Part shown: piece after piece, positions 37,336-49,505 of the stretch
How the letters are laid out: each line of letters starts with the position of its first letter
Position numbering within the stretch: position 1 is the first letter of the stretch
Assembly: GCA_016868475.1 (NCBI GenBank)
Contig: VGGU01000005.1
Location: forward strand, 1-64,000
DNA: 64,000 bases
Direction: 5' to 3'
Origin: Bacteroidota bacterium
GTDB taxonomy: Bacteria > Bacteroidota > Bacteroidia > Chitinophagales > Chitinophagaceae
Notes under the pieces: model-generated
Told to the model about the DNA's origin: nothing
The model's input: the letters and a program-made list of their open reading frames with translations, nothing else
Database searches by the model: none
Made by a program: the position numbers and the translations under genes

Positions 37336-38196
37336 ATGGCAGAGACTAAACCAACTGCAACAGCCGCTTCAAAGGCAAGTTCCGTTCAGGCAAAACATGA
37401 CAATAATATTATTTCATGGCTTGCACCATTAGTTTGTACACTAGCTGGTTATGCAATATGGCGCTTTATGATGGGGAGCGCAAGTGGGTTTGCTGAACCC
37501 GATTCAAGTGGTGGATTTTGGCCATCACACAGAGGACCAAAAGATGCATTTCATCGTATCTACGAAGGAGGTATCATTGTTCCTTTATTGATTGGTATGT
37601 TTTTGATGGTGGTCGTTTTCTCTATTGAGCGTTATCTGACCATTCGTCGTGCATTAGGAAATGGAGCTATTGCTGAGTTTATCCGCAAAGTGCAATTTCA
37701 TTTGGCAAGCCGTAATGTAGATGCTGCAATCGCTGAATGCGATAAGCAACATGGTTCAGTAGGTAATGTAATGAAGGCTGGTCTTCGTCGTTACAAGGAT
37801 ATGATTGCTGAAGGCAATATGTCTATTGATCAAAAAGTAATGGCTATTCAAAAAGAAGTGGAAGAAGCAACAGCATTGGAATTACCTATGATGCAAAAGA
37901 ACCTGGTGTTCCTATCTACAATTACATCTGTAGGTACCTTGATTGCCCTTTTGGGAACTGTATTAGGTATGATCCGTTCATTTGCTGCCCTAGGTGAAGA
38001 AGGGGGCGGAGGCGCTGCAGCTGATTTGGCTGTGGGTATCTCTGAGGCCCTTTATAACACCGCATTGGGTATTGGTACCTCTGCTATTGCATTGATTCTT
38101 TACAACGTATTTACTACTAAGATTGACTCAATCACGCACGGTATAGATGAATCTGGTTTCACCTTGACACAAAGTTTTGCTTCTTTGTATAAATAA
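37336..38196 (+). CDS. exbB: MotA/TolQ/ExbB proton channel family protein
   Basis: 286 residues. ExbB forms the proton channel that powers TonB or Tol-type transport across the periplasm. A first membrane segment is near 30-48, the second about 85-105 (GGIIVPLLIGMFLMVVVFSIE), and the ExbB/TolQ signature spans about 195-270 (LVFLSTITSVGTLIALLGTV, then AVGISEALYNTALGI). The Ala-rich N-terminal tail is predicted in the periplasm or cytoplasm. It opens an operon with two exbD genes and tonB. The 170 bases upstream hold no clear -7 match. Confidence 0.94.
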   Translation: MAETKPTATAASKASSVQAKHDNNIISWLAPLVCTLAGYAIWRFMMGSASGFAEPDSSGGFWPSHRGPKDAFHRIYEGGIIVPLLIGMFLMVVVFSIERYLTIRRALGNGAIAEFIRKVQFHLASRNVDAAIAECDKQHGSVGNVMKAGLRRYKDMIAEGNMSIDQKVMAIQKEVEEATALELPMMQKNLVFLSTITSVGTLIALLGTVLGMIRSFAALGEEGGGGAAADLAVGISEALYNTALGIGTSAIALILYNVFTTKIDSITHGIDESGFTLTQSFASLYK

Positions 38197-38251
38197 GCAT
38201 TACTGTAATTACATGTGTGCAACTGTTTCTTCACGAAAAAACTAATTCATC

Positions 38252-38905
38252 ATGCCCAGTGCCAAGATACCCCGGAGAAGTACGGATACCGATATGACCC
38301 CATTTGTGGACATCGCGTTTCTGATCCTTTCCTTTTTCATCATGGCCACCAAATTCAAGCCACCAGAGCCTGTAGAAATTACTACTCCCGGTTCGGTGCT
38401 TTCTCAGAAACTTCCTGAGAATAATGCTGTGATGATCATTATAGACTCTGCTAACAAAGTTTACTTTTCCGTAATGTCTGATCGCGACCCTTCCAAGTAC
38501 GATGCAATTATCCAAGGGATAAACTCCAGTCAAAACCTGGGATTGAGCCCTGCTGAAATGGCTAATTTCAGAAAGACATTTGTGGTTGGAGTAGACTTTG
38601 CTAACCTCAAACAACTACTCGCTACTGATTTTCACGATCAGCAAAAGATCAAGCAGCCTGGAATACCTGTTGCAGATACCTTAAACAACCAGCTTGTCTG
38701 GTGGATTAAGGAAGCTAAAACAGCTTTTGCCGGCGAAAAGCTGAATTATCTTATTAAAGGGGATGGACTTTCCAAGTATCCCACTTTTGCTGCAGTGGTG
38801 TATGCCCTGAAAAGGAATGAGGAGTTCAAGTACAATCTGGTTACTTCTCTCGACGATATTCCCCCCGGAACAGAACTGTATAAAGAGGAGCAAAACAAGA
38901 AATAA
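38252..38905 (+). CDS. exbD: ExbD/TolR family protein, first copy
   Basis: 217 residues, longer than enterobacterial ExbD (about 140). A single membrane segment about residues 15-35 holds the proton-carrying Asp in DMTPFVDIAFLILSFFIM. The periplasmic domain is extended and includes an inserted stretch around residues 95-150. It stabilises ExbB and TonB and conducts protons with ExbB. Located 55 bases after exbB and 26 before the second copy. The two copies are only distantly similar, so they probably have distinct places in the complex. Confidence 0.9.
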   Translation: MPSAKIPRRSTDTDMTPFVDIAFLILSFFIMATKFKPPEPVEITTPGSVLSQKLPENNAVMIIIDSANKVYFSVMSDRDPSKYDAIIQGINSSQNLGLSPAEMANFRKTFVVGVDFANLKQLLATDFHDQQKIKQPGIPVADTLNNQLVWWIKEAKTAFAGEKLNYLIKGDGLSKYPTFAAVVYALKRNEEFKYNLVTSLDDIPPGTELYKEEQNKK

Positions 38906-38931
38906 ATTATAACCACTAACTACACTTAATT

Positions 38932-39558
38932 ATGGCAAGTATAGATACCGGTGCGGAACAAGGTGGCAAAAAAGGTCCAGGGGTCAAGAAAGCTAAAAAA
39001 CTTTCTACCCGTGTGGATATGACTCCCATGGTGGACCTTGGCTTTTTGTTGATCACCTTCTTCGTTTTCACCGCAACGATGAGCTCGCCCACAACCTTAG
39101 ACTTGAACATGCCTAAGGATATTAAAAAGCAGGAAGATCAAACGGAGGTAAAAGAATCCTCTGTGTTGACCGTAATGCTGGGGAAGGCCGATCAGGTATA
39201 TTATTACGAAGGAAAACTGGTAGTAGATGCCACAGGTAATAATTTTAAGCAAACCACGTTTAAAGGAATAAGAGACATCATTGTCAATAAAAAGAAAGAA
39301 GTGATGGATCGTTATTACCAGCGTCCGGACCGTGAATGCGAGGCTAAGGCCACCGCAGCCGGGAAACCAGTGAGCAATTGCGCGGACAAGGATTTTGTGG
39401 TCATTATTAAACCTAGCAATGATGCCACCTATCGAAATACAGTAGACATATTGGATGAGATGACAATTAATCAGGTTCGTACCTATGCAATGGTAAAAAT
39501 TGCGGATGTAGAATACGAATTGATTAAGAAAACGGAAGAATCCAACGGCATCAAATAG
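38932..39558 (+). CDS. exbD: ExbD/TolR family protein, second copy
   Basis: 208 residues. The single membrane segment with the conserved Asp is near residues 30-50 (RVDMTPMVDLGFLLITFFVF). The N-terminal ~25 residues are Lys/Gly-rich and the periplasmic domain carries three cysteines close together (CEAKATAAGKPVSNCADK near 142-158) that could form a disulfide. Works with ExbB to energise TonB. Twenty bases before tonB. A two-ExbD layout is common in Bacteroidota. Confidence 0.9.
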   Translation: MASIDTGAEQGGKKGPGVKKAKKLSTRVDMTPMVDLGFLLITFFVFTATMSSPTTLDLNMPKDIKKQEDQTEVKESSVLTVMLGKADQVYYYEGKLVVDATGNNFKQTTFKGIRDIIVNKKKEVMDRYYQRPDRECEAKATAAGKPVSNCADKDFVVIIKPSNDATYRNTVDILDEMTINQVRTYAMVKIADVEYELIKKTEESNGIK

Positions 39559-39578
39559 TAAACGACAAAACAGCGAGC

Positions 39579-40400
39579 ATGGAAGTCAACAAAATACTAT
39601 CGGCAGATCTGTTGGACATCATATTCGAAGGAAGAAATAAAGAATATGGAGCCTACTATCTGCGTAAAACTTACAATCAACGAATCAAGCGTGCCTTGAT
39701 TATTACTGCGTCAATTGCCGGAATGATCCTTTTGATTTCTTTCCTGAATCAAACACTGAGCAATAGGAACGACGCCAAAGTAAAGATCAATGAGATGACT
39801 TTACAGGATGTAAAGCAGGAGGAAAAAGAACCTCCGCCACCACCTCCGCCACCACCTCCAAAGCAGGAGCCGCCCAAAGTGGAAATGAAGCAGTTTACTC
39901 CTCCTGTAATTAAAAAGGATGAGGAAGTGGAGAAACCCCCACCACCACAAGAAGAATTAAAAGAGGCAAAGATCGATGTGGTTAACGTAGAGGGTATCAA
40001 AGACGAAGGATTATCTGCTCCGGTAGACATTGATCAAGGACGTCAAATAGTAGAAGAAAAAATTGACGATAACAAGATTTTTGATAAGGTAGAGATTGAA
40101 GCAAGCTTTCCTGGAGGCGACAGCAAATGGCGTCAGTATCTTGAACGCAATGCCAACGGACAAGTTGCTACCGATCATAATGCTCCTGAGGGCTCTTATA
40201 CCGTAGTTGTACAGTTTGTGGTGGATAAAGAGGGAAATATCTCTGACGTTCGCACACTTACTAATCATGGCTATGGCATGGAGGAAGAAGCCCTGCGTGT
40301 AATACGTAAAGGACCAAAATGGAATCCTGCCGTACAAAACGGACGCCAGGTAAAAGCGTATCGCAAACAACCTATTACGTTCCGTGTTGAGTCTGATTAA
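39579..40400 (+). CDS. tonB: TonB energy transducer protein
   Basis: 273 residues. TonB spans the periplasm and pulls on outer-membrane receptors. The cytoplasmic N-terminus has the Bacteroidota motif NKEYGAYYLRKTYNQR near residue 22, one membrane segment follows (about 40-60), then a proline-rich spacer (about 85-130, including a run of nine or ten Pro) and the C-terminal TonB domain with SYTVVVQFVVDKEGNISDV near 203 and GMEEEALRVIRKGPKWNPA near 228. The last residues (KQPITFRVESD) are typical of the family end. A strong terminator follows at 40423-40452. Confidence 0.95.
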   Translation: MEVNKILSADLLDIIFEGRNKEYGAYYLRKTYNQRIKRALIITASIAGMILLISFLNQTLSNRNDAKVKINEMTLQDVKQEEKEPPPPPPPPPPKQEPPKVEMKQFTPPVIKKDEEVEKPPPPQEELKEAKIDVVNVEGIKDEGLSAPVDIDQGRQIVEEKIDDNKIFDKVEIEASFPGGDSKWRQYLERNANGQVATDHNAPEGSYTVVVQFVVDKEGNISDVRTLTNHGYGMEEEALRVIRKGPKWNPAVQNGRQVKAYRKQPITFRVESD

Positions 40401-40485: not shown

Positions 40486-41868
40486 ATGCATCAATTGTCG
40501 GGTTGGGATGATACTATTGTAGCCTTAGCTACTCCTCCGGGTGTGGGAGCTATTGGCGTAATACGGGTAAGTGGTAAACAAGCGCTATGCATGGTTGATC
40601 AGTTGTTCCCCGCCAAAGACTTGACAACACTGCCCACCCATACCGCACATGTTGGATTTTTACAAAAGGATAAAAAAGTATTGGACGAAGTTGTTTTAAC
40701 GCTATTCAAGTCTCCACGCTCTTACACCGGAGAGGACGTAGTTGAAATAAGTTGTCATGGTTCGCCCTTTGTACAACGTGAGGTAATTGATGCTATAGTT
40801 CAATTAGGAGCTCGGTTAGCTCGCCCAGGTGAATTTACACAACGTGCTTTTTTGCAGGGGAAACTTGATTTAACACAAGCTGAAGCGGTTGCCGATCTTA
40901 TTGCTTCCGGCACCGAAGCTGCACAACGTGCTGCGTTACAGGGTTTACGAGGTGGTTTTTCAGCTGAGTTGAAACAATTACGCGAGCAGCTTATTCAATT
41001 TTCATCCTTGTTGGAATTAGAGCTTGATTTTTCTCAGGAGGATGTAACGTTTGCAGATCGTACGCAATTAAACGAATTGTTGAATCGTCTAGCGGCTACC
41101 ACCCAAACCTTGCTGCAATCTTTTAAGTTGGGTAATGTAATTAAGAACGGCGTAGGTGTGGCCATAGTTGGTAAGCCCAATGCAGGAAAAAGTACACTGC
41201 TGAATAGCTTGCTGAATGAGAATAGAGCCATAGTCAGTGAAATTGCCGGCACAACGCGAGACACCATTGAGGAGGTATTGAATATCGAAGGCGTATTGTT
41301 TAGACTAATAGACACGGCCGGACTGCGCAGCACCACTAATGACCAGATTGAACAAGTTGGTATTGAAAGAAGCTATGAAAAAATGCGAACAGCCGATTTA
41401 GTGATTTATTTATTTGATGTAGCTGATCCAGTTGAAGAGGTTAAACAATGGGCTGAAGAGGCAAGTGCACAAGGCTTGCATTTTCTGCTGGTTGGAAATA
41501 AAATAGATTTAGCCCCTGCGCAATCATTGGATGAAAAATTTTCTCAACTGTCTGTGGCTCCGCTCCTCATTGCTGCTAAAAACAAAACAAATTTAGCCGC
41601 ATTAACATCAGCCATGTTAAAGGAAGTGTTGAGCGGACAGGTTTTGCATGAAAATATTATTGTTACCAACCAGCGTCATTACCAAGCATTACTTCAGGTA
41701 AATCTGGCGTTGGAGGATACGCAAAAAGGAATCAAGGAAGGATTGGCCAGTGATTTAGTGGCCTTGGAAATAAGAAGGTGTTTGCAATATCTCGGAGAAA
41801 TTACCGGTGAGATCACCAATGAAGAGCAGCTAGATTATATTTTTAGTAAGTTTTGTATCGGGAAGTGA
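40486..41868 (+). CDS. mnmE: tRNA uridine-5-carboxymethylaminomethyl modification GTPase
   Basis: 460 residues. MnmE with MnmG modifies the wobble uridine of several tRNAs. The folate-binding N-terminal domain starts DTIVALATPPGVGAIGVIRV. The G domain has the P-loop VGKPNAGKSTLLNS near residue 225, the switch region GTTRDTIEEVL near 254 and DTAGLRST near 276. The C-terminal catalytic Cys is in the conserved end FCIGK. ATG 40486 is used; the -7 element lies just four bases upstream. Last gene before the AT-rich cassette. Confidence 0.97.
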   Translation: MHQLSGWDDTIVALATPPGVGAIGVIRVSGKQALCMVDQLFPAKDLTTLPTHTAHVGFLQKDKKVLDEVVLTLFKSPRSYTGEDVVEISCHGSPFVQREVIDAIVQLGARLARPGEFTQRAFLQGKLDLTQAEAVADLIASGTEAAQRAALQGLRGGFSAELKQLREQLIQFSSLLELELDFSQEDVTFADRTQLNELLNRLAATTQTLLQSFKLGNVIKNGVGVAIVGKPNAGKSTLLNSLLNENRAIVSEIAGTTRDTIEEVLNIEGVLFRLIDTAGLRSTTNDQIEQVGIERSYEKMRTADLVIYLFDVADPVEEVKQWAEEASAQGLHFLLVGNKIDLAPAQSLDEKFSQLSVAPLLIAAKNKTNLAALTSAMLKEVLSGQVLHENIIVTNQRHYQALLQVNLALEDTQKGIKEGLASDLVALEIRRCLQYLGEITGEITNEEQLDYIFSKFCIGK

Positions 41869-42314
41869 AGTTGTCAGAAACTTGTTTACTATAGCTTAGT
41901 TTTCAATAGGTTAGACATAAAATCTTCAGTTTACTTGTTCTCCCAACAATGCCATCGTTAGCTGCCCAATCTTTCTTGAATGTCGAATTTTTGCTTTATA
42001 ATTGTTTACGTCTAAATGATGAAACGCAGTCAAGCTATTAGCTCTAAAACACCTTCTTTGGAGCTAGAAGGAATTGCTGATTTGGGCTAAATTACATGAT
42101 GGTGCCTAAATTTGAGTTGAAGATTGAAGCAACAAGTTTAATAAAGTCGACCACACGAAATGAAAACTAACAATCCGTCACAAATCTTTGATAGTTCATA
42201 AACAAAATTTGTATTATCGACAATAATAAATAGAAGACTTGACTTCATTAAAAAACGGGGCGAAACCGAAAAGCCAGAAGAGTAGGGCAAACTTAAAATT
42301 TAAAAACATTAAAA
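41869..42314. other. 446-base AT-rich intergenic region with a possible promoter
   Basis: No gene is seen on either strand. A full TAnnTTTG match (TAAATTTG, 42107-42114, plus strand) with TTTG at 42081-42084 22 bases upstream is a possible promoter for the TM2 operon, giving a leader of about 200 bases. A wobble-containing inverted repeat (42040-42048 with 42057-42065, loop 8) has no T-run. Hand-counted base composition is AT-rich like the genes that follow. Confidence 0.5.
42081..42114 (+). promoter_or_regulatory. candidate promoter of the four-gene membrane cassette
   Basis: TTTG at 42081-42084 and TAAATTTG at 42107-42114, spacing 22 bases, resemble -33 and -7 elements. The distance to the TM2 start codon is about 200 bases, longer than for other genes here, so the call is tentative. 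Confidence 0.35.
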
Positions 42315-42653
42315 ATGGATGCACATAAAGTCGACATGTTTTTAATGGCAAACAGCAAATTCTTTGAGAGTCATCAAATGAACATGATTAGAGAAAGATT
42401 AGTTAACCTAGATGATTCAAAATGGGCAATGCTATCAATAATTCAGTTCAAAGACCCAACAACCAGTCTTATTGTTTCAATCTTGGCGGGAAGCTTAGGT
42501 ATAGACAGGTTTATGATTGGGGACACCGGTTTAGGTGTTGGCAAACTTCTTACTTGTGGCGGTTTAGGAATTTGGGCAATTGTTGATTGGTTTCAAATTC
42601 AAAAAGCAACAAGAGAAAAGAATATGCAAAAAATTCAGCAATTTTTATATTGA
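42315..42653 (+). CDS. TM2 domain protein
   Basis: 112 residues. After a charged N-terminal region (DAHKVDMFLMANSKFFE), the TM2 pattern appears at about residues 50-100: TSLIVSILAGSLGIDRFMIG then two hydrophobic helices with the DxF and DW turns (GIDRF, AIVDWFQ). TM2 proteins are small membrane proteins of unknown function, with a PGxxxHRF/GxDRF-like turn between helices. Its stop overlaps the next ATG by one base (TGATG). First gene of a coupled four-gene set. Confidence 0.85.
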   Translation: MDAHKVDMFLMANSKFFESHQMNMIRERLVNLDDSKWAMLSIIQFKDPTTSLIVSILAGSLGIDRFMIGDTGLGVGKLLTCGGLGIWAIVDWFQIQKATREKNMQKIQQFLY

Positions 42654-43069
42654 TGCTACTTGACAGGAACAAGCTGTATTCAATACTGCTAATAGCATGT
42701 TTAGCAGGGTATATTTGGCTATATTATAGCATTACATCAAATGTAACTGAAAATAATTCAGTAGAAGTATGCTTGATAAAGCACACCATAAACATACCCT
42801 GCCCCTCCTGTGGTTCAACACGTTCTATAATTTCATTGACTAAAGGTAATTTTTGGGAAGCCTTTGATTTAAACCCAATAGGATATATAATAGCAGTTAT
42901 TATGCTAATTGCTCCTGTTTGGGTTTTTGTAGACATACGATTGAGAAATAACTCACTATTCGTGTGTTACCAAAAAATTGAAAGCCGCCTAAAAAAACCG
43001 AAGTATGCAATCCCGCTGGCTTTTTTAGTAATTATGAATTGGATTTGGAACATCACTAAAGGATTATGA
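42653..43069 (+). CDS. DUF2752 family small membrane protein
   Basis: 138 residues. Three hydrophobic segments are visible (about 9-25, 75-95 and 120-135). The DUF2752 hallmark is clear: CPSCGSTRSIISLTKG near residue 46, followed by AFDLNPIGYII. CxxCGxTR may bind metal or form a redox pair, but no function is known for the family. The ATG overlaps the TM2 stop by one base; a longer frame from 42587 would overlap TM2 deeply and lacks family similarity. Overlaps the next gene by four bases. Confidence 0.85.
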   Translation: MLLDRNKLYSILLIACLAGYIWLYYSITSNVTENNSVEVCLIKHTINIPCPSCGSTRSIISLTKGNFWEAFDLNPIGYIIAVIMLIAPVWVFVDIRLRNNSLFVCYQKIESRLKKPKYAIPLAFLVIMNWIWNITKGL

Positions 43070-43500
43070 TAAATCTTAAACAATTTAGTTACGAACCGGG
43101 TGAACATGAAGCAGAGACGGCTTCAAATAGTTATTTGATGTCATTGATAGCTATTATAGTGGGGTTGCCGCTGCCAATAGTAAACTTAATAGCCACATTG
43201 ATATTTTATTATGGAAATAGAAAGTCCACTTACTTTGTCCGCTGGCATTGCACCCAAGCTTTACTTTCACAATTATCTATGCTACTCATTAATAGCTTTG
43301 GATTTTGGTGGACAATATCAATAATATTCACAGACGAGACAATCACAAGTAAATACATTGCCTACCTATTTGCGGCACTTTTCTTTAATCTGACTGAATT
43401 TATTGCAACCATTTATACAACAATTCAGACAAGAAAAGGAATTCATGTAGAATGGTGGTTTTTTGGTTCATTGACTAACTTAATTTGCAAACCGAATTGA
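43066..43500 (+). CDS. DUF4870-like (Tic20-like) membrane protein
   Basis: 144 residues with four predicted membrane segments (about 25-45, 60-80, 95-115, 122-140). The pattern ...ATLIFYYGNRKSTYFVRWHCTQALLSQL near residue 45-70 resembles the DUF4870/Tic20-like family, in which a conserved HxxQAL region follows the first helix. Function unknown. Overlaps the genes on both sides by four bases and one base, implying coupled translation. Confidence 0.65.
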   Translation: MINLKQFSYEPGEHEAETASNSYLMSLIAIIVGLPLPIVNLIATLIFYYGNRKSTYFVRWHCTQALLSQLSMLLINSFGFWWTISIIFTDETITSKYIAYLFAALFFNLTEFIATIYTTIQTRKGIHVEWWFFGSLTNLICKPN

Positions 43501-44297
43501 TGAAGAAATCTATCTCACAAGGTCTAATAACCATACTCCTTTTTCTTGGAACTTGGTATGCGCTAGCGCAAGTGGACTGGATGAATATTTTTAAAGTCCA
43601 ACAAGTCACAGACAAAACAGAGCAAAAACTAGGAGAACTTTTTTGGGAAGTTTTTAAAAATGCAGAAAGAGAAATAAAAAGCACACCTGTTGTGAATTCG
43701 ATTGATAGCATGGTAACACATTTCTGTAAAGCAAATTTGATTGATAGAAGTAAGTTAAAGATTCATGTTCTTGACAAAGAAGACATTAACGCATTTGCTT
43801 TGCCTAATGGACACCTAATTGTTTATAGTGGTTTAATTCTAAATGCTAGCAATCAAGAAGAATTAGCAGGTGTAATTTGCCATGAAATTGCACACATAGA
43901 ATTGAATCATGTAATGAAAAAATTAGTAAAGGAAATTGGACTTTCCGTTTTAATTTCTATGACAACTGGTAATAGTGGTGCCGAAGTGATCAAGGAAACT
44001 GCAAAAATGCTTTCTTCCACTGCATTTGACAGAAGTTTAGAAAAGGATGCGGATATCAAAGCCGTTGACTATTTGGTTAAAGCAAATCTAAATCCCAAAC
44101 CTTTTGCTGACTTCCTATATAAACTTTCAGACACTGAACATGAAGCAACAAAATATTTAACATGGATCAGCACTCATCCTGACTCAAAAGCTAGAGCAGA
44201 ATATATCATTGAATACAGCAAAGGTAAAGAGTCAGCATATAAGCCCATTTTAGCAAATGATACTTGGGAGAAGTTGAAAGCAGAATTGGAGAACTGA
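43500..44297 (+). CDS. M48-type membrane-anchored metalloprotease
   Basis: 265 residues. One N-terminal membrane segment (about 8-28) anchors a zinc protease domain. The zinc site HEIAH with the catalytic Glu is near residue 128 (GVICHEIAHIELNH) and the third ligand Glu is in RSLEKDADIKAVDY near 180, as in the M48 (Ste24/HtpX-like) family. ALPNGHLIVYSG near 98 and STHPDSKAR near 223 are also typical. M48 proteases degrade misfolded or oxidised membrane or periplasmic proteins. The ATG overlaps the previous stop by one base. It is the last gene of the cassette. Confidence 0.88.
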   Translation: MKKSISQGLITILLFLGTWYALAQVDWMNIFKVQQVTDKTEQKLGELFWEVFKNAEREIKSTPVVNSIDSMVTHFCKANLIDRSKLKIHVLDKEDINAFALPNGHLIVYSGLILNASNQEELAGVICHEIAHIELNHVMKKLVKEIGLSVLISMTTGNSGAEVIKETAKMLSSTAFDRSLEKDADIKAVDYLVKANLNPKPFADFLYKLSDTEHEATKYLTWISTHPDSKARAEYIIEYSKGKESAYKPILANDTWEKLKAELEN

Positions 44298-44598
44298 GAT
44301 GAAAGCAGATAAACTTACCAAAAGCTCTCTCTGAATTCCAATTCCATAGATTACTAAACCAATTTAGGGCATATGCTTATGGGCTATGCAGGAATGTGTT
44401 AACACCAAAATGAGTTGTTTAATAAAGAACAGCCAATTTCTCCTAAGCCGAAAAATTCTTTTTGGTTTTTGACGCGATTCTCATATTTGCGGACTTTTAT
44501 AAAGCAGTAAAAATCAATATTTTACGTAGGGCTGCGTTAATTAGCTGAATTGCCAAAAATTGAATACATTGCGACACCATTACTAATAAAAAATCTTT
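44298..44598. other. 301-base intergenic region upstream of the TonB-dependent receptor
   Basis: No gene is seen. A 7-of-8 match to the -7 element (CATATTTG, 44482-44489, plus strand) lies about 110 bases before the receptor ATG, which would give a leader of about 100 bases. No B12 box, FMN or other riboswitch core was recognised. The bases directly before the ATG are A/T-rich (TAATAAAAAATCTTT), as usual for translation initiation in Bacteroidota. Confidence 0.5.
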
Positions 44599-47280
44599 AT
44601 GAAAAAACATCTATTAAGTTTTCTAGTTATGGCTCTGCCATTACTAGCGGTAGCGCAATCATCGCTATCAGGCAAAGTAGTTAGCAACTCAGGTGCAGTT
44701 GCTTCTGCAAGCGTTTCTGTAAGCCCAGGGGGCAAAAGCACAATTACCGACGAGAATGGTAAGTTTTCGTTCTCCTTAGAAAGCGGTTCTTACAAAGTAA
44801 CTGTTTCTTCGGTAGGACTTACTACCAAAACCGTAAATGTAACTTTAGGCGCTAATCAGTCTAAAGATATAACGGTTGAACTAGCAGAAGGAGTAACCGA
44901 TATCCAGGAAGTGGTTGTGGTGGGTACTCGTACGGCTCCAAGGTCTAGCACTAACTCTCCATTACCGGTAGATGTGTTCCAATCAAGCGACATCACCTCA
45001 ACTGGACAAGTGAGTTTTGACAAAGCGCTTCAATACAGAGTGCCGTCTTTTAACACCGTACAAACTCCTGTTAACGATGCAACATCTTTGTTAGATCCTT
45101 ATGAGATCCGTAACATGGGGCCAAGCAGAACTTTAATTCTTATCAATGGAAAAAGAAAGAATATGAGTTCATTGCTTTATGTACAAACTTCTCCAGGCCG
45201 TGGTGAAACAGGTGCCGATATTTCTGCAATCCCTACAGAAGCAATTAAAAGTGTTGAGATATTAAGAGATGGTGCATCCGCTCAATACGGTTCTGATGCT
45301 ATTGCGGGTGTAATGAACATTGTGTTAAAGGACAAAGCAGAATACGGAACAGTTACTATCAATAGCGGTATTACGCATGAAGGAGATGGTGAGAGCTATG
45401 GCGTTTCATTAAATAATGGAAAGCAATTTGGAAAAAATGGCTTTTTAAATTATACCGTTTCTTTATCTCAGGTAGACCTGGCCAATCGTCCAGGAAAAGT
45501 TGATGCAAGAGCAGATGCGGATGATAACATTGGTTTCGGAGCTCCTTTGGCTACTGTTCAATCTTTCTTAAGTAAACATCCTGACGGAGGAAATATCAAT
45601 GGTTCTCCAAAAACTACTGCTGCTAAATTTTTAGTAAATGGTTCCGTTCCTCTTGAAGGCGACGAGTCTTTTTACTTTAATGCAGCCTACGTTTATAAAA
45701 AAGTAAATAGTTATGCTAACTACAGAACTCCATACTGGAAAAGCAGAGCTTCAAACCCATTGTTAGTTCTATTAGGCCCTAATGTTGGATTGACAGAAGG
45801 TTATGTTCCCACTTTTGAGGGTACTATGAGCGACTACAATGCAACAGTTGGATTCAAATCTAAATTAGGCAGTTGGAATTCAGATGCCAGCTTTACAACT
45901 GGTGGTAACAGCATCGATTTTGATGTAAGAAATACCGTAAACTATGGTTTGGGTATGGCTTCACCAATTGAATTTAAACCTGGTGGTTTTGCATTTAATC
46001 ATATAGTAGGAAACTTGGATATCAACAAGCAAGTGGCTAGTAATTTGAGCGTTGCATTTGGTACAGAGTTTAGAGCTGAAGAATTTACCATGCGCAGAGG
46101 AGACACTGCTTCTTATGTTAGAGGTGGTGCCAATTCCTTCCCTGGTTTTCAATTGGATAACAAAGATTTGAGAAGTACACGTTTTAACATTGGTTTTTAC
46201 GGAGATCTTAGTTACGACCTATCTAAAGATTTCTTAGTTAATGCTACTTTAAGAAGTGAGAACTATAGTGATTTTGGTAAGGCCTTTGTATGGAAAGTAA
46301 GTTCAAGATATAAGTTAATGGACGATAAACTAACATTAAGAGCTTCTGCAAGTACTGGTTTTAGAGCACCATCCTTACATCAAACATCATTACAGTTATC
46401 GCAAGCCAGCTTCTTGCCTGGTGGTGCAATTGTTATAGAAGGTATCATTAACAATGGTAGCGCACAAGCAAAAGCTTTAGGTGTGGAAAAACTAAGAGCT
46501 GAAAAAAGCGATAACATAACATTTGGTTTTGGGTTGAAAGCAAACAAAGACCTAAGCGTTACAGTTGACTATTATAGCATTAAAGTAAAAGACCGTATCG
46601 TGTTGGGCTCAAAGCTTAACACCTCTGTAGGAAGAGTATCGTTCTTTACCAATGGTATTACCACACAGACCACTGGTTTTGACTTTGTACTTACGCAGAG
46701 AAATATTGCGTTAGGCAGAGGAAAATTATCTGCTAACCTAGCTGGTAATGTTACTTTATCTAACGAACTGGTAGGCGGTTTGACCGGTGGAGTAAAAAAT
46801 CCAGCAGCTATAGCCGCTACAGGACAATCTATTTTTGATGCTACCCAAGAGGCCTTGTTGTTGAGTAGCCGTCCTGCAACTAAAGTAATTTTTGGATTGG
46901 ATTACAAAGTTGGAAAAGTAAATTTCAACCTGAACAATACTTACTTTGGAAAAACTACTTTCCACCAAGATGGAATCAACCAAAATCTAAACACAGAATT
47001 TATTCCTAAGATTGTTACAGACCTGGGGGTAAATATCAATTTCAACAAAAAGGTAAATTTTGCATTTAACATTAATAATCTACTTAATGTTATGCCAGAA
47101 TGGAAGTTTGTTGGATTGAATAGTGCTGGTACTACATACATTGCAAATGCCAACAATTTATGGGAACAAACCAATCTGTTAACCTTTAACGGACGTTACA
47201 GTAACGTAACCTATGATGGTTCTCATTTTAGCCAATTAGGTACCTTGTATCAAGCTACGTTAACATTTAAGTTTTATTAA
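44599..47280 (+). CDS. TonB-dependent outer-membrane receptor
   Basis: 893 residues. Signal peptide (KKHLLSFLVMALPLLAVAQ), a carboxypeptidase-like regulatory domain at about 22-92 (SLSGKVVSNSGAVASASV) typical of Bacteroidota receptors, then the plug with EVVVVGTRTAPRSS near 110-125 and ALQYRVPSFNTVQTPVND. ALQYRVPSFN and RDGASAQYGSDAIAGVMNIV near 220 are conserved plug elements. The beta-barrel fills the rest and ends in an aromatic residue (LTFKFY). Not a SusC: no SusD partner follows. The ligand is unknown. A good terminator follows at 47301-47333. It probably uses the TonB/ExbBD system at 37.3-40.4 kb. Confidence 0.93.
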   Translation: MKKHLLSFLVMALPLLAVAQSSLSGKVVSNSGAVASASVSVSPGGKSTITDENGKFSFSLESGSYKVTVSSVGLTTKTVNVTLGANQSKDITVELAEGVTDIQEVVVVGTRTAPRSSTNSPLPVDVFQSSDITSTGQVSFDKALQYRVPSFNTVQTPVNDATSLLDPYEIRNMGPSRTLILINGKRKNMSSLLYVQTSPGRGETGADISAIPTEAIKSVEILRDGASAQYGSDAIAGVMNIVLKDKAEYGTVTINSGITHEGDGESYGVSLNNGKQFGKNGFLNYTVSLSQVDLANRPGKVDARADADDNIGFGAPLATVQSFLSKHPDGGNINGSPKTTAAKFLVNGSVPLEGDESFYFNAAYVYKKVNSYANYRTPYWKSRASNPLLVLLGPNVGLTEGYVPTFEGTMSDYNATVGFKSKLGSWNSDASFTTGGNSIDFDVRNTVNYGLGMASPIEFKPGGFAFNHIVGNLDINKQVASNLSVAFGTEFRAEEFTMRRGDTASYVRGGANSFPGFQLDNKDLRSTRFNIGFYGDLSYDLSKDFLVNATLRSENYSDFGKAFVWKVSSRYKLMDDKLTLRASASTGFRAPSLHQTSLQLSQASFLPGGAIVIEGIINNGSAQAKALGVEKLRAEKSDNITFGFGLKANKDLSVTVDYYSIKVKDRIVLGSKLNTSVGRVSFFTNGITTQTTGFDFVLTQRNIALGRGKLSANLAGNVTLSNELVGGLTGGVKNPAAIAATGQSIFDATQEALLLSSRPATKVIFGLDYKVGKVNFNLNNTYFGKTTFHQDGINQNLNTEFIPKIVTDLGVNINFNKKVNFAFNINNLLNVMPEWKFVGLNSAGTTYIANANNLWEQTNLLTFNGRYSNVTYDGSHFSQLGTLYQATLTFKFY

Positions 47281-47300
47281 TAATAGAATTATTAATAGTA

Positions 47301-47333
47301 AAAGGGCTGCTTCAAAAAAGCAGCCCTTTTTTT
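47301..47333 (+). terminator. intrinsic terminator after the TonB-dependent receptor
   Basis: A perfect 12-base-pair stem (47301-47312 with 47318-47329, five-base loop) runs into a T tract (47327-47333). It ends the receptor transcript 20 bases after the stop and isolates it from recG. Confidence 0.92.
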
Positions 47334-47402
47334 ATTCAGAAAAAATATTACATTGGACAAAGATTGGTAACCTGATCAACTTCAATCAAAACTAGCTTTC
47401 CA

Positions 47403-49505
47403 TTGTCTCGTCTTCTGCAAAATCCTATTGAATACTTAAAAGGGGTGGGCCCATTAAGAGCCGACTTGTTAAAAAAAGAGTTGGGAGTTTTTACCTATGA
47501 AGATCTATTGAACCATTTCCCTTTCCGGCATATTGACAGAACAAGAGTTAGTACTATTTCCCAATTAACACATGAGGCTGACTTTGCACAGGTTGCCGGT
47601 GTGGTGTTGCAGGTAGATATAATTGGACAGCGCTCGGGTAAGCGATTAGTGGCGCAGTTCAAGGATAAGACGGGAGTCATGGAACTTACTTGGTTTAAAG
47701 GGATTAGTTGGGTACAGAAAACAATTATTCCCGGACAATCCTATTTGATTTTTGGCCGATTGGGATTTTTTAATGATCGCCCGCAGTTTGTTCATCCTGA
47801 AGTGGAAAGAATAGAAGTCGCTCAGCCCTTAGAAAAGAATTACCTGGAGCCGGTTTATTCCACTACAGAAAAGCTAAAGGCAAAGGGCTTGGGGGGTAGA
47901 CAATTAGCTAAACTAACGCAAGTATTGTTGAGTCAGATAAGTTCTGCAGATATACCTGAATTTTTATCTCCAACTTTATTTAAGGAGCTGGGTTTGATGG
48001 AAAGAAGAGAGGCGTATCAACAAATTCACTTTCCAGCCAATGCAGCACTGGCTGCCAGCGCATTGAAGAGACTAAAGTTCGAAGAATTTTTTATTGCCCA
48101 ACTCCGTATGCAGTTGATACGAGCGCAAAGACATAACCATTCAGTGGGGGTGGTTTTTGAAAAGGTGGGCAATGCCTTTAATGACTATTATTCCACTTGT
48201 TTGCCATTTGAATTAACCAATGCACAGAAACGGGTGTTGAAAGAAATTCGTAACGATACGGCAAAGGGCAGACAAATGAATCGTTTACTGCAGGGAGATG
48301 TGGGTAGTGGTAAAACCATTGTGGCCTTACTGGCTATGTTGTTGGCTGTAGATAATGGATACCAAGCTTGCCTGATGGCACCCACAGAGATATTGGCACA
48401 ACAACATTTTGCTTCAATTCAAGGTTCGCTTTCTACCATCGGAATGACCATTGGGTTAATTACCGGCTCAACTAAAACAGCTGAACGTAAAAAGATATTG
48501 GCTGCCTTAGAAGAAGGATCGCTTCATCTGTTGGTGGGCACACATGCTCTCATTGAAGAAACAGTAAAATTTAGCAAATTAGGCTTGGTGGTTATTGACG
48601 AACAACACCGATTTGGAGTGGCACAGCGGGCTCGCTTATGGAAAAAAGCAGTAGTTCCCCCTCACATTTTAGTAATGACGGCTACCCCTATTCCTCGAAC
48701 CTTGGCTATGACCGCCTATGGCGATCTTGATTATAGTGCAATCGATGAATTGCCTCCTGGTCGTAAACCTATTCAAACAGCACATCGTTACGAAAAAGAT
48801 CGAAGTCGGGTAATGGAATTTATTAAAACTGAAATCTCCAAGGGAAGGCAATGTTATATTATTTATCCGCTGATTGAAGAAAGCGCCAAATTGGATTATG
48901 AGAATCTAATGAAAGGTTATGAGGAAGTAAAAGCCTTTTTTCCGGAACCGGCGTATTGGATAAGCATGGTGCATGGTCGGCAGCCTGCTGCACAAAAAGA
49001 AATTAATATGCAACGCTTTGTTAGCGGTGACACACAAATCATGGTGGCCACTACCGTAATTGAAGTGGGGGTGAATGTGCCAAATGCCACCGTGATGCTT
49101 ATTGAAAGTGCAGAAAAATTTGGATTATCTCAGTTACATCAGCTTAGAGGAAGAGTGGGTCGGGGGGCTGAAAAAAGTTATTGTATACTACTTACCCCGC
49201 CAAGTATTGGTAAGGAGGCTAGTGAGCGCATGAAGATTATGGCAAAAACGGCAAGTGGTTTTGAAATAGCTGAAAAGGATCTCTTATTAAGGGGGCCTGG
49301 AGAAATTGAAGGAACCAGACAGAGCGGGGCACTAAATTTCAAATTAGCCAATGTGCTTCAGGATCGGCCTTTATTGGAATGGGCAAGGGAGCAGGCAGCT
49401 CGGGTACTTGATGCAGATCCCTCGCTTGGGAAGCCTGAAAATCAACCGTTGAGGATTTATTTGCAACAACATAGGGGAGCTGTTAACTGGAGTAAAATAT
49501 CTTAG
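47403..49505 (+). CDS. recG: ATP-dependent DNA helicase RecG
   Basis: 700 residues. RecG remodels stalled replication forks and Holliday junctions. The wedge/OB region comes first (LLQNPIEYLKGVGPLRADLL), helicase motif I is LQGDVGSGKTIVALL near residue 298, the DExx box is VVIDEQHRFGVAQRAR near 395, and motif VI region QLRGRVGRG near 578 is present. The only start choice after an in-frame stop at 47373 is TTG 47403, so a non-ATG start is likely. Separated from the receptor by a terminator; 124 bases with no clear motif follow. Confidence 0.95.
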   Translation: MSRLLQNPIEYLKGVGPLRADLLKKELGVFTYEDLLNHFPFRHIDRTRVSTISQLTHEADFAQVAGVVLQVDIIGQRSGKRLVAQFKDKTGVMELTWFKGISWVQKTIIPGQSYLIFGRLGFFNDRPQFVHPEVERIEVAQPLEKNYLEPVYSTTEKLKAKGLGGRQLAKLTQVLLSQISSADIPEFLSPTLFKELGLMERREAYQQIHFPANAALAASALKRLKFEEFFIAQLRMQLIRAQRHNHSVGVVFEKVGNAFNDYYSTCLPFELTNAQKRVLKEIRNDTAKGRQMNRLLQGDVGSGKTIVALLAMLLAVDNGYQACLMAPTEILAQQHFASIQGSLSTIGMTIGLITGSTKTAERKKILAALEEGSLHLLVGTHALIEETVKFSKLGLVVIDEQHRFGVAQRARLWKKAVVPPHILVMTATPIPRTLAMTAYGDLDYSAIDELPPGRKPIQTAHRYEKDRSRVMEFIKTEISKGRQCYIIYPLIEESAKLDYENLMKGYEEVKAFFPEPAYWISMVHGRQPAAQKEINMQRFVSGDTQIMVATTVIEVGVNVPNATVMLIESAEKFGLSQLHQLRGRVGRGAEKSYCILLTPPSIGKEASERMKIMAKTASGFEIAEKDLLLRGPGEIEGTRQSGALNFKLANVLQDRPLLEWAREQAARVLDADPSLGKPENQPLRIYLQQHRGAVNWSKIS

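Follow-up and report, generated by a model that had tools for sequence, protein, structure and literature searches.

A conserved four-gene cassette of three small membrane proteins and an M48 protease in Bacteroidota, a putative travelling inner-membrane protease module

Membrane-bound proteases of the M48 family include HtpX and Ste24, which have several membrane helices. An M48-type protease is also part of the transmissible heat-resistance loci of Proteobacteria, which are mobile envelope-stress sets with a much larger number of genes than the locus described here. For the protein families TM2, DUF2752 and DUF4870, we know of no agreed function in bacteria. According to a passage of PMC7950410, the four M48 enzymes of Escherichia coli appear to act in the quality control of membrane-protein biogenesis, and an HPx4R motif that plugs the active site is described there for BepA.

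The window analysed is a stretch of 64,000 nt from a Bacteroidota bacterium of the Chitinophagaceae (assembly GCA_016868475.1, contig VGGU01000005.1, positions 1-64,000, forward strand). At positions 42315-44297, it carries four plus-strand genes in the order TM2, DUF2752, DUF4870-like and M48 protease (Table 1). These genes overlap by 1, 4 and 1 bases with ATG starts at 42653 for the DUF2752 gene and at 43500 for the M48 gene, for which a TTG at 43485 is listed as an alternative start. A preliminary description had named the four genes, their families and their overlaps, all of which agree with the coordinates and with Pfam, and had described CPSCGxTR, HEIAH and ExxxD motifs as intact, which is confirmed by the motifs read in the sequence. 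Absent from that description were the leader RNA at 42226-42292, the low G+C content of the cassette and the recombination of its parts. Further upstream, beyond mnmE, the genes at 37336-40400 have translations that resemble ExbB, ExbD (two proteins) and TonB.

Table 1. Features of the cassette and its upstream region (positions in the window)
Feature	Position	Strand	Remarks
Promoter-like box	42186..42220	+	pattern from close copies
Leader RNA, Rfam RF03081 (DUF805 RNA)	42226..42292	+	ends 22 bases before gene 1 start codon
Second hairpin and pseudoknot of leader RNA	42259..42286	+	hairpin 42259-42261 with 42273-42275; pseudoknot C42266-G42286, C42267-G42285; covariation
Gene 1, TM2 protein	42315..42653	+	112 aa; Pfam
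Gene 2, DUF2752 protein	42653..43069	+	138 aa; Pfam; AlphaFold2 pLDDT 87.4
CPSCGSTR motif, gene 2	42800..42823	+	residues 50-57
Gene 3, DUF4870-like protein	43066..43500	+	144 aa; AlphaFold2 pLDDT 88.2
Gene 4, M48 protease	43500..44297	+	265 aa; one N-terminal hydrophobic stretch
HEIAH zinc-binding motif, gene 4	43881..43895	+	residues 128-132
ExxxD motif, gene 4	44040..44054	+	E181, D185
HPx4R active-site plug motif, gene 4	44175..44195	+	H226, P227, R232

Genes 1 and 2 encode members of the Pfam families TM2 (PF05154; 57.1 bits, cut-off 27.9) and DUF2752 (PF10825; 59.6 bits, cut-off 27), respectively, and the residues C50, P51, S52, C53, G54 and R57 of the DUF2752 protein are invariant in 39 aligned rows. 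Gene 3 reaches 24.1 bits against DUF4870 (PF09685), which is 0.9 below the cut-off of 25, and three relatives from a recombined form of the cassette (form B, see below) score 41.2, 42.7 and 35.9 bits, all over this cut-off. Among the four cassette proteins, conservation is highest for gene 3, together with TM2. The AlphaFold2 models of genes 2 and 3 are helical proteins, and no significant fold match was found for either model in the PDB.

The protein encoded by gene 4 belongs to the M48 family according to its score against Peptidase_M48 of Pfam (88.2 bits, cut-off 20.3) and its HExxH...E and HPx4R motifs. The residues H128, E129, H132, E181, D185, H226, P227 and R232 do not vary among 29 cassette proteases, and the single hydrophobic stretch is centred on residues 6-22. 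Its closest relatives of solved structure are 3c37 and BepA. Against the NCBIfam model of BepA, the protein scores 82.6 bits with a cut-off of 570 and a match ending at residue 232; against that of LoiP, it scores 69.2 bits with a cut-off of 365, and there is no cysteine within its first 24 residues. Among the 147 genomes of the window's family, all 14 M48 matches above 250 bits adjoin gene 3, the next match reaches 141 bits, and no M48 protease of the cassette clade was found apart from gene 3. A second M48 protease is encoded in the window's genome in a frame of about 360 aa (L285, G000:C7:65877-66614), and its clade is that of the M48 protease of form C (see below).

A profile search with gene 3 in a collection with one genome per species (84,980 species) yielded 320 places with a relative, and the best 80 of these were analysed. 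All four genes are present in the same order and on the same strand in 77 of these 80 loci, a proportion that describes the copies nearest to that of the window and not the 240 remoter ones. One of the three exceptions is cut by a contig end (L081), and the other two are without a protease (L086 and L116). In L116 (2584-4400), gene 3 is complete and is followed right after its stop codon by unrelated DNA in which no M48 gene was found, indicating loss of the protease. The DUF2752 and DUF4870 genes overlap by 4 bases at 74 of the 77 complete loci. Two entries (L118 and L119) are one contig, with 9650 of 9651 bases alike, so that no more than 79 of the 80 loci are distinct; the names of the two, Algoriphagus and Saprospiraceae, belong to two orders, which probably reflects a binning error in one of them.

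Within the window's family, gene 3 matches were found in 15 of the 147 genomes, one of which is weak and contains stops (G026). The four genes lie on one contig in 12 of the remaining 14 genomes, including that of the window, although the end gene is cut by a contig end in two of them (G092 and G033); in the other two, the cassette is split over two contigs (G139) or the contig begins inside gene 3 (G140). Thus, none of the 14 genomes contradicts the cassette order. Weak gene 3 matches with internal stops (G026 and G092:C84) and the match in G333 (E 8.3e-4) were treated as noise. The preliminary description had named a frequent conserved order across distant Bacteroidota as support for a system, and such an order is found with the 77 of 80 loci, the names of which cover six classes. 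It had also named two observations that would speak against a system, namely occurrence in one strain only and occurrence of each part alone with unrelated neighbours; neither holds, though other arrangements occur. The four genes are a real conserved module.

These other arrangements show that the parts of the four-gene cassette (form A) are recombined. In form B (G156, G158, G418 and G344), a doubled-DUF4389 protein is encoded first, followed by DUF4870 and M48; the DUF4389 scores of the three proteins scanned are 66.8, 63.5 and 71.9 bits, and the fourth was judged by eye. In form C (G135 and G047), TM2 and DUF2752 directly precede an M48 protease that is larger (about 360 aa), and DUF4870 is lacking. 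In a quick tree, this protease groups with ten other M48 proteases of the family, apart from the cassette clade (SH-aLRT 100). Hence, M48 proteases are associated with two different membrane modules, one of which occurs with proteases of two clades, and the pairing of small membrane proteins with such proteases is a recurrent feature. A divergent four-gene form is present in G690 and G846, and DUF4870-M48 without TM2-DUF2752 in G608 (L246). TM2-DUF2752 without an adjacent protease was found at four loci (L171, L172, L283 and L284), and therefore the small proteins can exist without one next to them. In G798, gene 3 is broken and no protease was found.

The best 80 of the 320 loci come from Flavobacteriia (20), Bacteroidia (14), Chitinophagia (11), Cytophagia (9), Sphingobacteriia (4) and Saprospiria (3), while 19 are without a class; these labels are the names of assembled genomes and may be loose. 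In a tree of the four proteins with 78 rows, 60 of them with a class, 27 class changes are required compared to a minimum of 5; one of the 27 may be false, since the contig shared by L118 and L119 is counted under both names. With shuffled labels, the mean is 35 changes and no shuffle gets down to 27, and therefore some inheritance occurs within classes, too. The nearest copy to that of the window among the tree rows is from Flavobacterium glaciei, with 85% identity over 656 columns. Taken together, the tree indicates that the cassette travels horizontally between classes of Bacteroidota. The G+C content of the cassette is about 34-35% compared to about 42% in the genes upstream of it in the window, and it is below that of the flanks in 61 of the 76 loci with enough flanking DNA. 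Of 396 genomes of the order, 22 have a gene 3 match, and of 395 sampled from the phylum, 13 do; these counts include the weak match in G333, the broken gene in G798 and recombined forms. The cassette is rare and patchy in the phylum.

No neighbour gene is shared by the best 80 of the 320 loci, with the commonest cluster present at 7 of 80 loci in varied positions. The Pfam families listed for the 86 nearest neighbours are mostly metabolic or housekeeping families, each in at most two proteins, and neither a transposase nor an integrase is among the 25 listed of the 95 matched families. In the window, the cassette lies together with a TonB-dependent receptor gene and shorter frames between mnmE and recG. 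Three genomes of the same genus were compared at the mnmE-recG site only; in G868, the gap is about 20 bases and the cassette site is empty, and in G860 and G869, one other gene is located there. In the closest genome of the genus (G471), in which no gene 3 match was found, DNA similarity stops at the mnmE stop codon and other cargo follows. The mnmE-recG space (41866-47403 in the window; L277-L280) thus varies within the genus and looks like a place that accepts new genes. Islands of the SGI1 type, which we take to insert site-specifically at the 3' end of mnmE (trmE) and to carry an integrase inside and, at the opposite border, a second copy of the mnmE end, were considered as a model. An integrase-borne island of this kind was rejected, as the window contains one copy of the mnmE end (up to 3 mismatches) and the loci have no common neighbour. 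The repeats found in the window are short pairs only.

The region upstream of gene 1 encodes a full-length member of RF03081 (57.4 bits, gathering score 51.1, positions 1-68 of 68), which is the only match at the gathering score in the window and in the genome. In its first hairpin, one consensus pair is non-standard in the window. A pseudoknot joins the loop of the RNA with its GAGTAGG end. In an alignment of 51 sequences, the outer pseudoknot pair is C-G in 36, A-U in 9, U-A in 5 and unpaired in 1, and the inner pair is C-G in 41, U-A in 5, U-G in 4 and unpaired in 1. Both-sided changes were found for 8 of the 9 pairs tested, which include the two pairs of the pseudoknot. Across the alignment, from which L126 (9 mismatches) and L119 were left out, 92.9% of the cells are paired, whereas shuffles give 82.1% and shifted partners no more than 46.3%; the rows were picked by motif likeness, which flatters this percentage but is no source of compensating changes. 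Pairing is less consistent in the first hairpin, two pairs of which have 10 and 7 unpaired cells.

The leader RNA accompanies only part of the cassettes. A loose pattern places it before the cassette at 52 of the 79 best loci, of which one (L126) is doubtful, and about one third are without it. The Rfam gathering score confirms the RNA at all 14 loci chosen from the pattern-positive ones. It is reached at 3 of 20 family and order loci, some of which appear to be identical to named loci (L145 to L071 and L150 to L117, with the same scores), and at none of 15 loci that represent forms B and C, parts standing alone, copies that are broken or divergent, and G223, which has a four-gene copy. The pattern of the promoter-like box occurs in 16 of 78 upstream stretches with up to 5 mismatches, 3 in the case of the window, compared to 0.25 of 78 on average with shuffled letters.

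RF03081 is not restricted to the cassette but is carried by 69 of 395 genomes of the phylum, sometimes in two or three copies within a few kb. In such rows (L205-L213, from G669, G494, G579, G673, G754, G762, G712, G806 and G775), each copy mostly precedes a different small gene. In 40 stretches, an open reading frame starts 77-114 bases from the first base of the RNA for 43 of 54 copies, and 77-95 bases from it for 40 of 54; for 600 random positions in the same stretches, the proportions are 19% (range 70-116) and 8% (range 77-95). The 43 proteins encoded behind the RNA match 27 Pfam families at E-values up to 0.001, some of which overlap on one protein. A fixed distance before varied genes fits a control of translation and speaks against a single metabolite. 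A metabolite riboswitch was accordingly rejected, given the variety of genes behind RF03081 elsewhere, and no ligand is claimed.

We regard the cassette as a horizontally travelling, self-contained inner-membrane protease module, with a probability of roughly 0.55. Based on charge and hydropathy and the positive-inside rule, the N-terminus of gene 4 is predicted to lie inside and the zinc domain in the periplasm, and there are weak indications that the CPxCG segment of DUF2752 faces the same side. The protease would be held in the membrane by its N-terminal helix, and TM2, DUF2752 and the DUF4870-like protein would form a membrane part that positions and gates it. DUF2752 and the DUF4870-like protein may position or gate the protease, which would otherwise be kept closed by its own plug, and TM2 would complete the membrane part. 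When the other genes are accounted for, the partial distance correlation in 78 copies is 0.66 for DUF2752-M48, 0.38 for TM2-DUF4870, 0.37 for DUF4870-M48 and 0.11 or less for the remaining three pairs; the first value may in part be due to these being the two faster-changing genes. DUF2752 is the best candidate for a direct contact with the protease because its CPxCG segment is predicted on the same side and its divergence follows that of the protease most closely. Under some form of stress, the module would remove or process membrane or envelope proteins that are misassembled, similar to BepA and YcaL, and the leader RNA would adjust the translation of the four-gene set. The joint membrane complex and the quality-control role suggested in the preliminary description fit this anatomy and the known roles of M48 proteases. 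In summary, a regulated inner-membrane protease complex that acts in the periplasm, as in BepA-type quality control, is the most likely reading, for which we infer the complex, its substrate and its signal.

The joint function has to be weighed against the possibility that the four genes are passengers, which share a promoter and move together without forming a single machine. Operon-like sets can travel for joint expression alone, and the TM2-DUF2752 pairs standing alone in some genomes fit this explanation. Further observations count against the protease module as proposed: the protease-less loci L086 and L116, the broken copy in G798 and the lack of the leader RNA in about one third of the loci. 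Overlaps as such say little about joint function, but the near-zero gaps are kept with a regularity that argues against mere passengers, as does the strict adjacency of the cassette-clade protease to gene 3 in the 147 family genomes. Recombination of the parts is stronger evidence. Forms B and C arose by two different recombinations and each keeps an M48 partner, which is the best evidence that the membrane modules work with the protease and not merely beside it; we therefore consider passengers improbable. A device for export or maturation, in which the DUF4870-like protein would be a Tic20-type channel and the M48 protease would trim passing cargo, perhaps TM2 or a peptide encoded elsewhere, is the least probable of the readings considered. 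It is favoured by a passage of PMC3581485, in which PF09685 bore the name Tic20 in 2013, by a weak TIC20 match of one form B relative of gene 3 (17.8 bits, under the cut-off of 28.6) and by the Tic20 chains of two TOC-TIC entries in the fold lists of gene 3. However, none of these fold matches reaches significance (Foldseek E 2.6 and 4.0; Z 6.6 and 5.7), and they stand amid unrelated helical folds; the fold lists and the former name are a lead only. No TIC20 match of gene 3 itself was found in Pfam at E-values up to 1. In addition, form C does without DUF4870, and no common extra gene or peptide was found beside the 80 loci among open reading frames of at least 50 aa.

The preliminary description had also considered a role in defence. 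In such a system, directed against phages or other bacteria, the membrane proteins would sense envelope damage or injection and release the protease, which would arrest or kill the cell. A patchy distribution and transfer between classes, both seen here, are common for defence genes, a passage of PMC7950410 describes the plug motif as common to the phage-exclusion protease Lit, and gene 4 has a weak PADLOC match to Lit (13.7 bits, E 0.0068, 16 residues). No PADLOC match was found for genes 1-3, though, and the 86 nearest neighbours match 47 PADLOC models, none of them in more than one protein and with generic helicases among the models listed. Moreover, with gene 3 as the sole query, no relatives were found in viral, plasmid and phage collections. 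The suggestion of a defence role is not supported by these results, and we consider it about as unlikely as that of passengers.

Beyond the inner-membrane protease module itself, a wider reading is conceivable, although we put it forward as rather doubtful. The cassette could represent one variant within a hitherto undescribed class of membrane-protease systems of Bacteroidota, modular and travelling, in which exchangeable modules of small membrane proteins (TM2-DUF2752 or DUF4389), with or without a DUF4870 scaffold, would sense the state of the membrane and lift the plug of the M48 protease. The leader RNA, which recurs before many other genes, would then be one translational signal, perhaps of envelope stress or stationary phase. 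Each family as such and quality control by M48 proteases are already known, while a description of the four-part travelling module, its recombined forms or the link to the RNA was not found in open-licence PMC papers. The same collection yielded no paper on DUF2752, on pairs of the family names or on their combination, and none on the DUF805 RNA by name. With the cassette and the recombined forms that keep the protease, orphan families come together in a single hypothesis that can be tested. The operon also gives a defined context to an orphan regulatory RNA, whose pseudoknot has covariation support and whose signal can be searched for via a proteolysis phenotype. Should the complex exist, it would reveal how an M48 protease, presumably kept closed by its own plug, is opened by partner proteins.

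Compared with described systems, the DUF4870-like protein is connected to DUF4870 by relatives above the cut-off of that family and lacks a significant fold match to Tic20. The leader of the window is a full-length DUF805 RNA, which differs from other members in being tied to a four-gene cassette; the printed Rfam structure line of RF03081 has no pseudoknot, whereas leaders of the window's type have one supported by covariation. The heat-resistance loci of Proteobacteria, as generally described, resemble the cassette in being mobile and in having an M48-type protease but belong to another phylum and are larger. HtpX and Ste24 are likewise membrane-bound M48 proteases, to which gene 4 has weak sequence matches and from which it differs by its one hydrophobic stretch. 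The periplasmic M48 proteases BepA, YcaL and LoiP of E. coli share with gene 4 the M48 family by sequence, the zinc ligands, the HPx4R plug and the predicted action in the periplasm. The scores of gene 4 are far under the NCBIfam cut-offs of both BepA and LoiP; with 265 aa, the protein is too short for the C-terminal TPR part of BepA, and without an N-terminal cysteine, it has no lipoprotein signal as in LoiP. The cassette differs from all three of these systems by adding three small membrane protein genes to the protease in one set.
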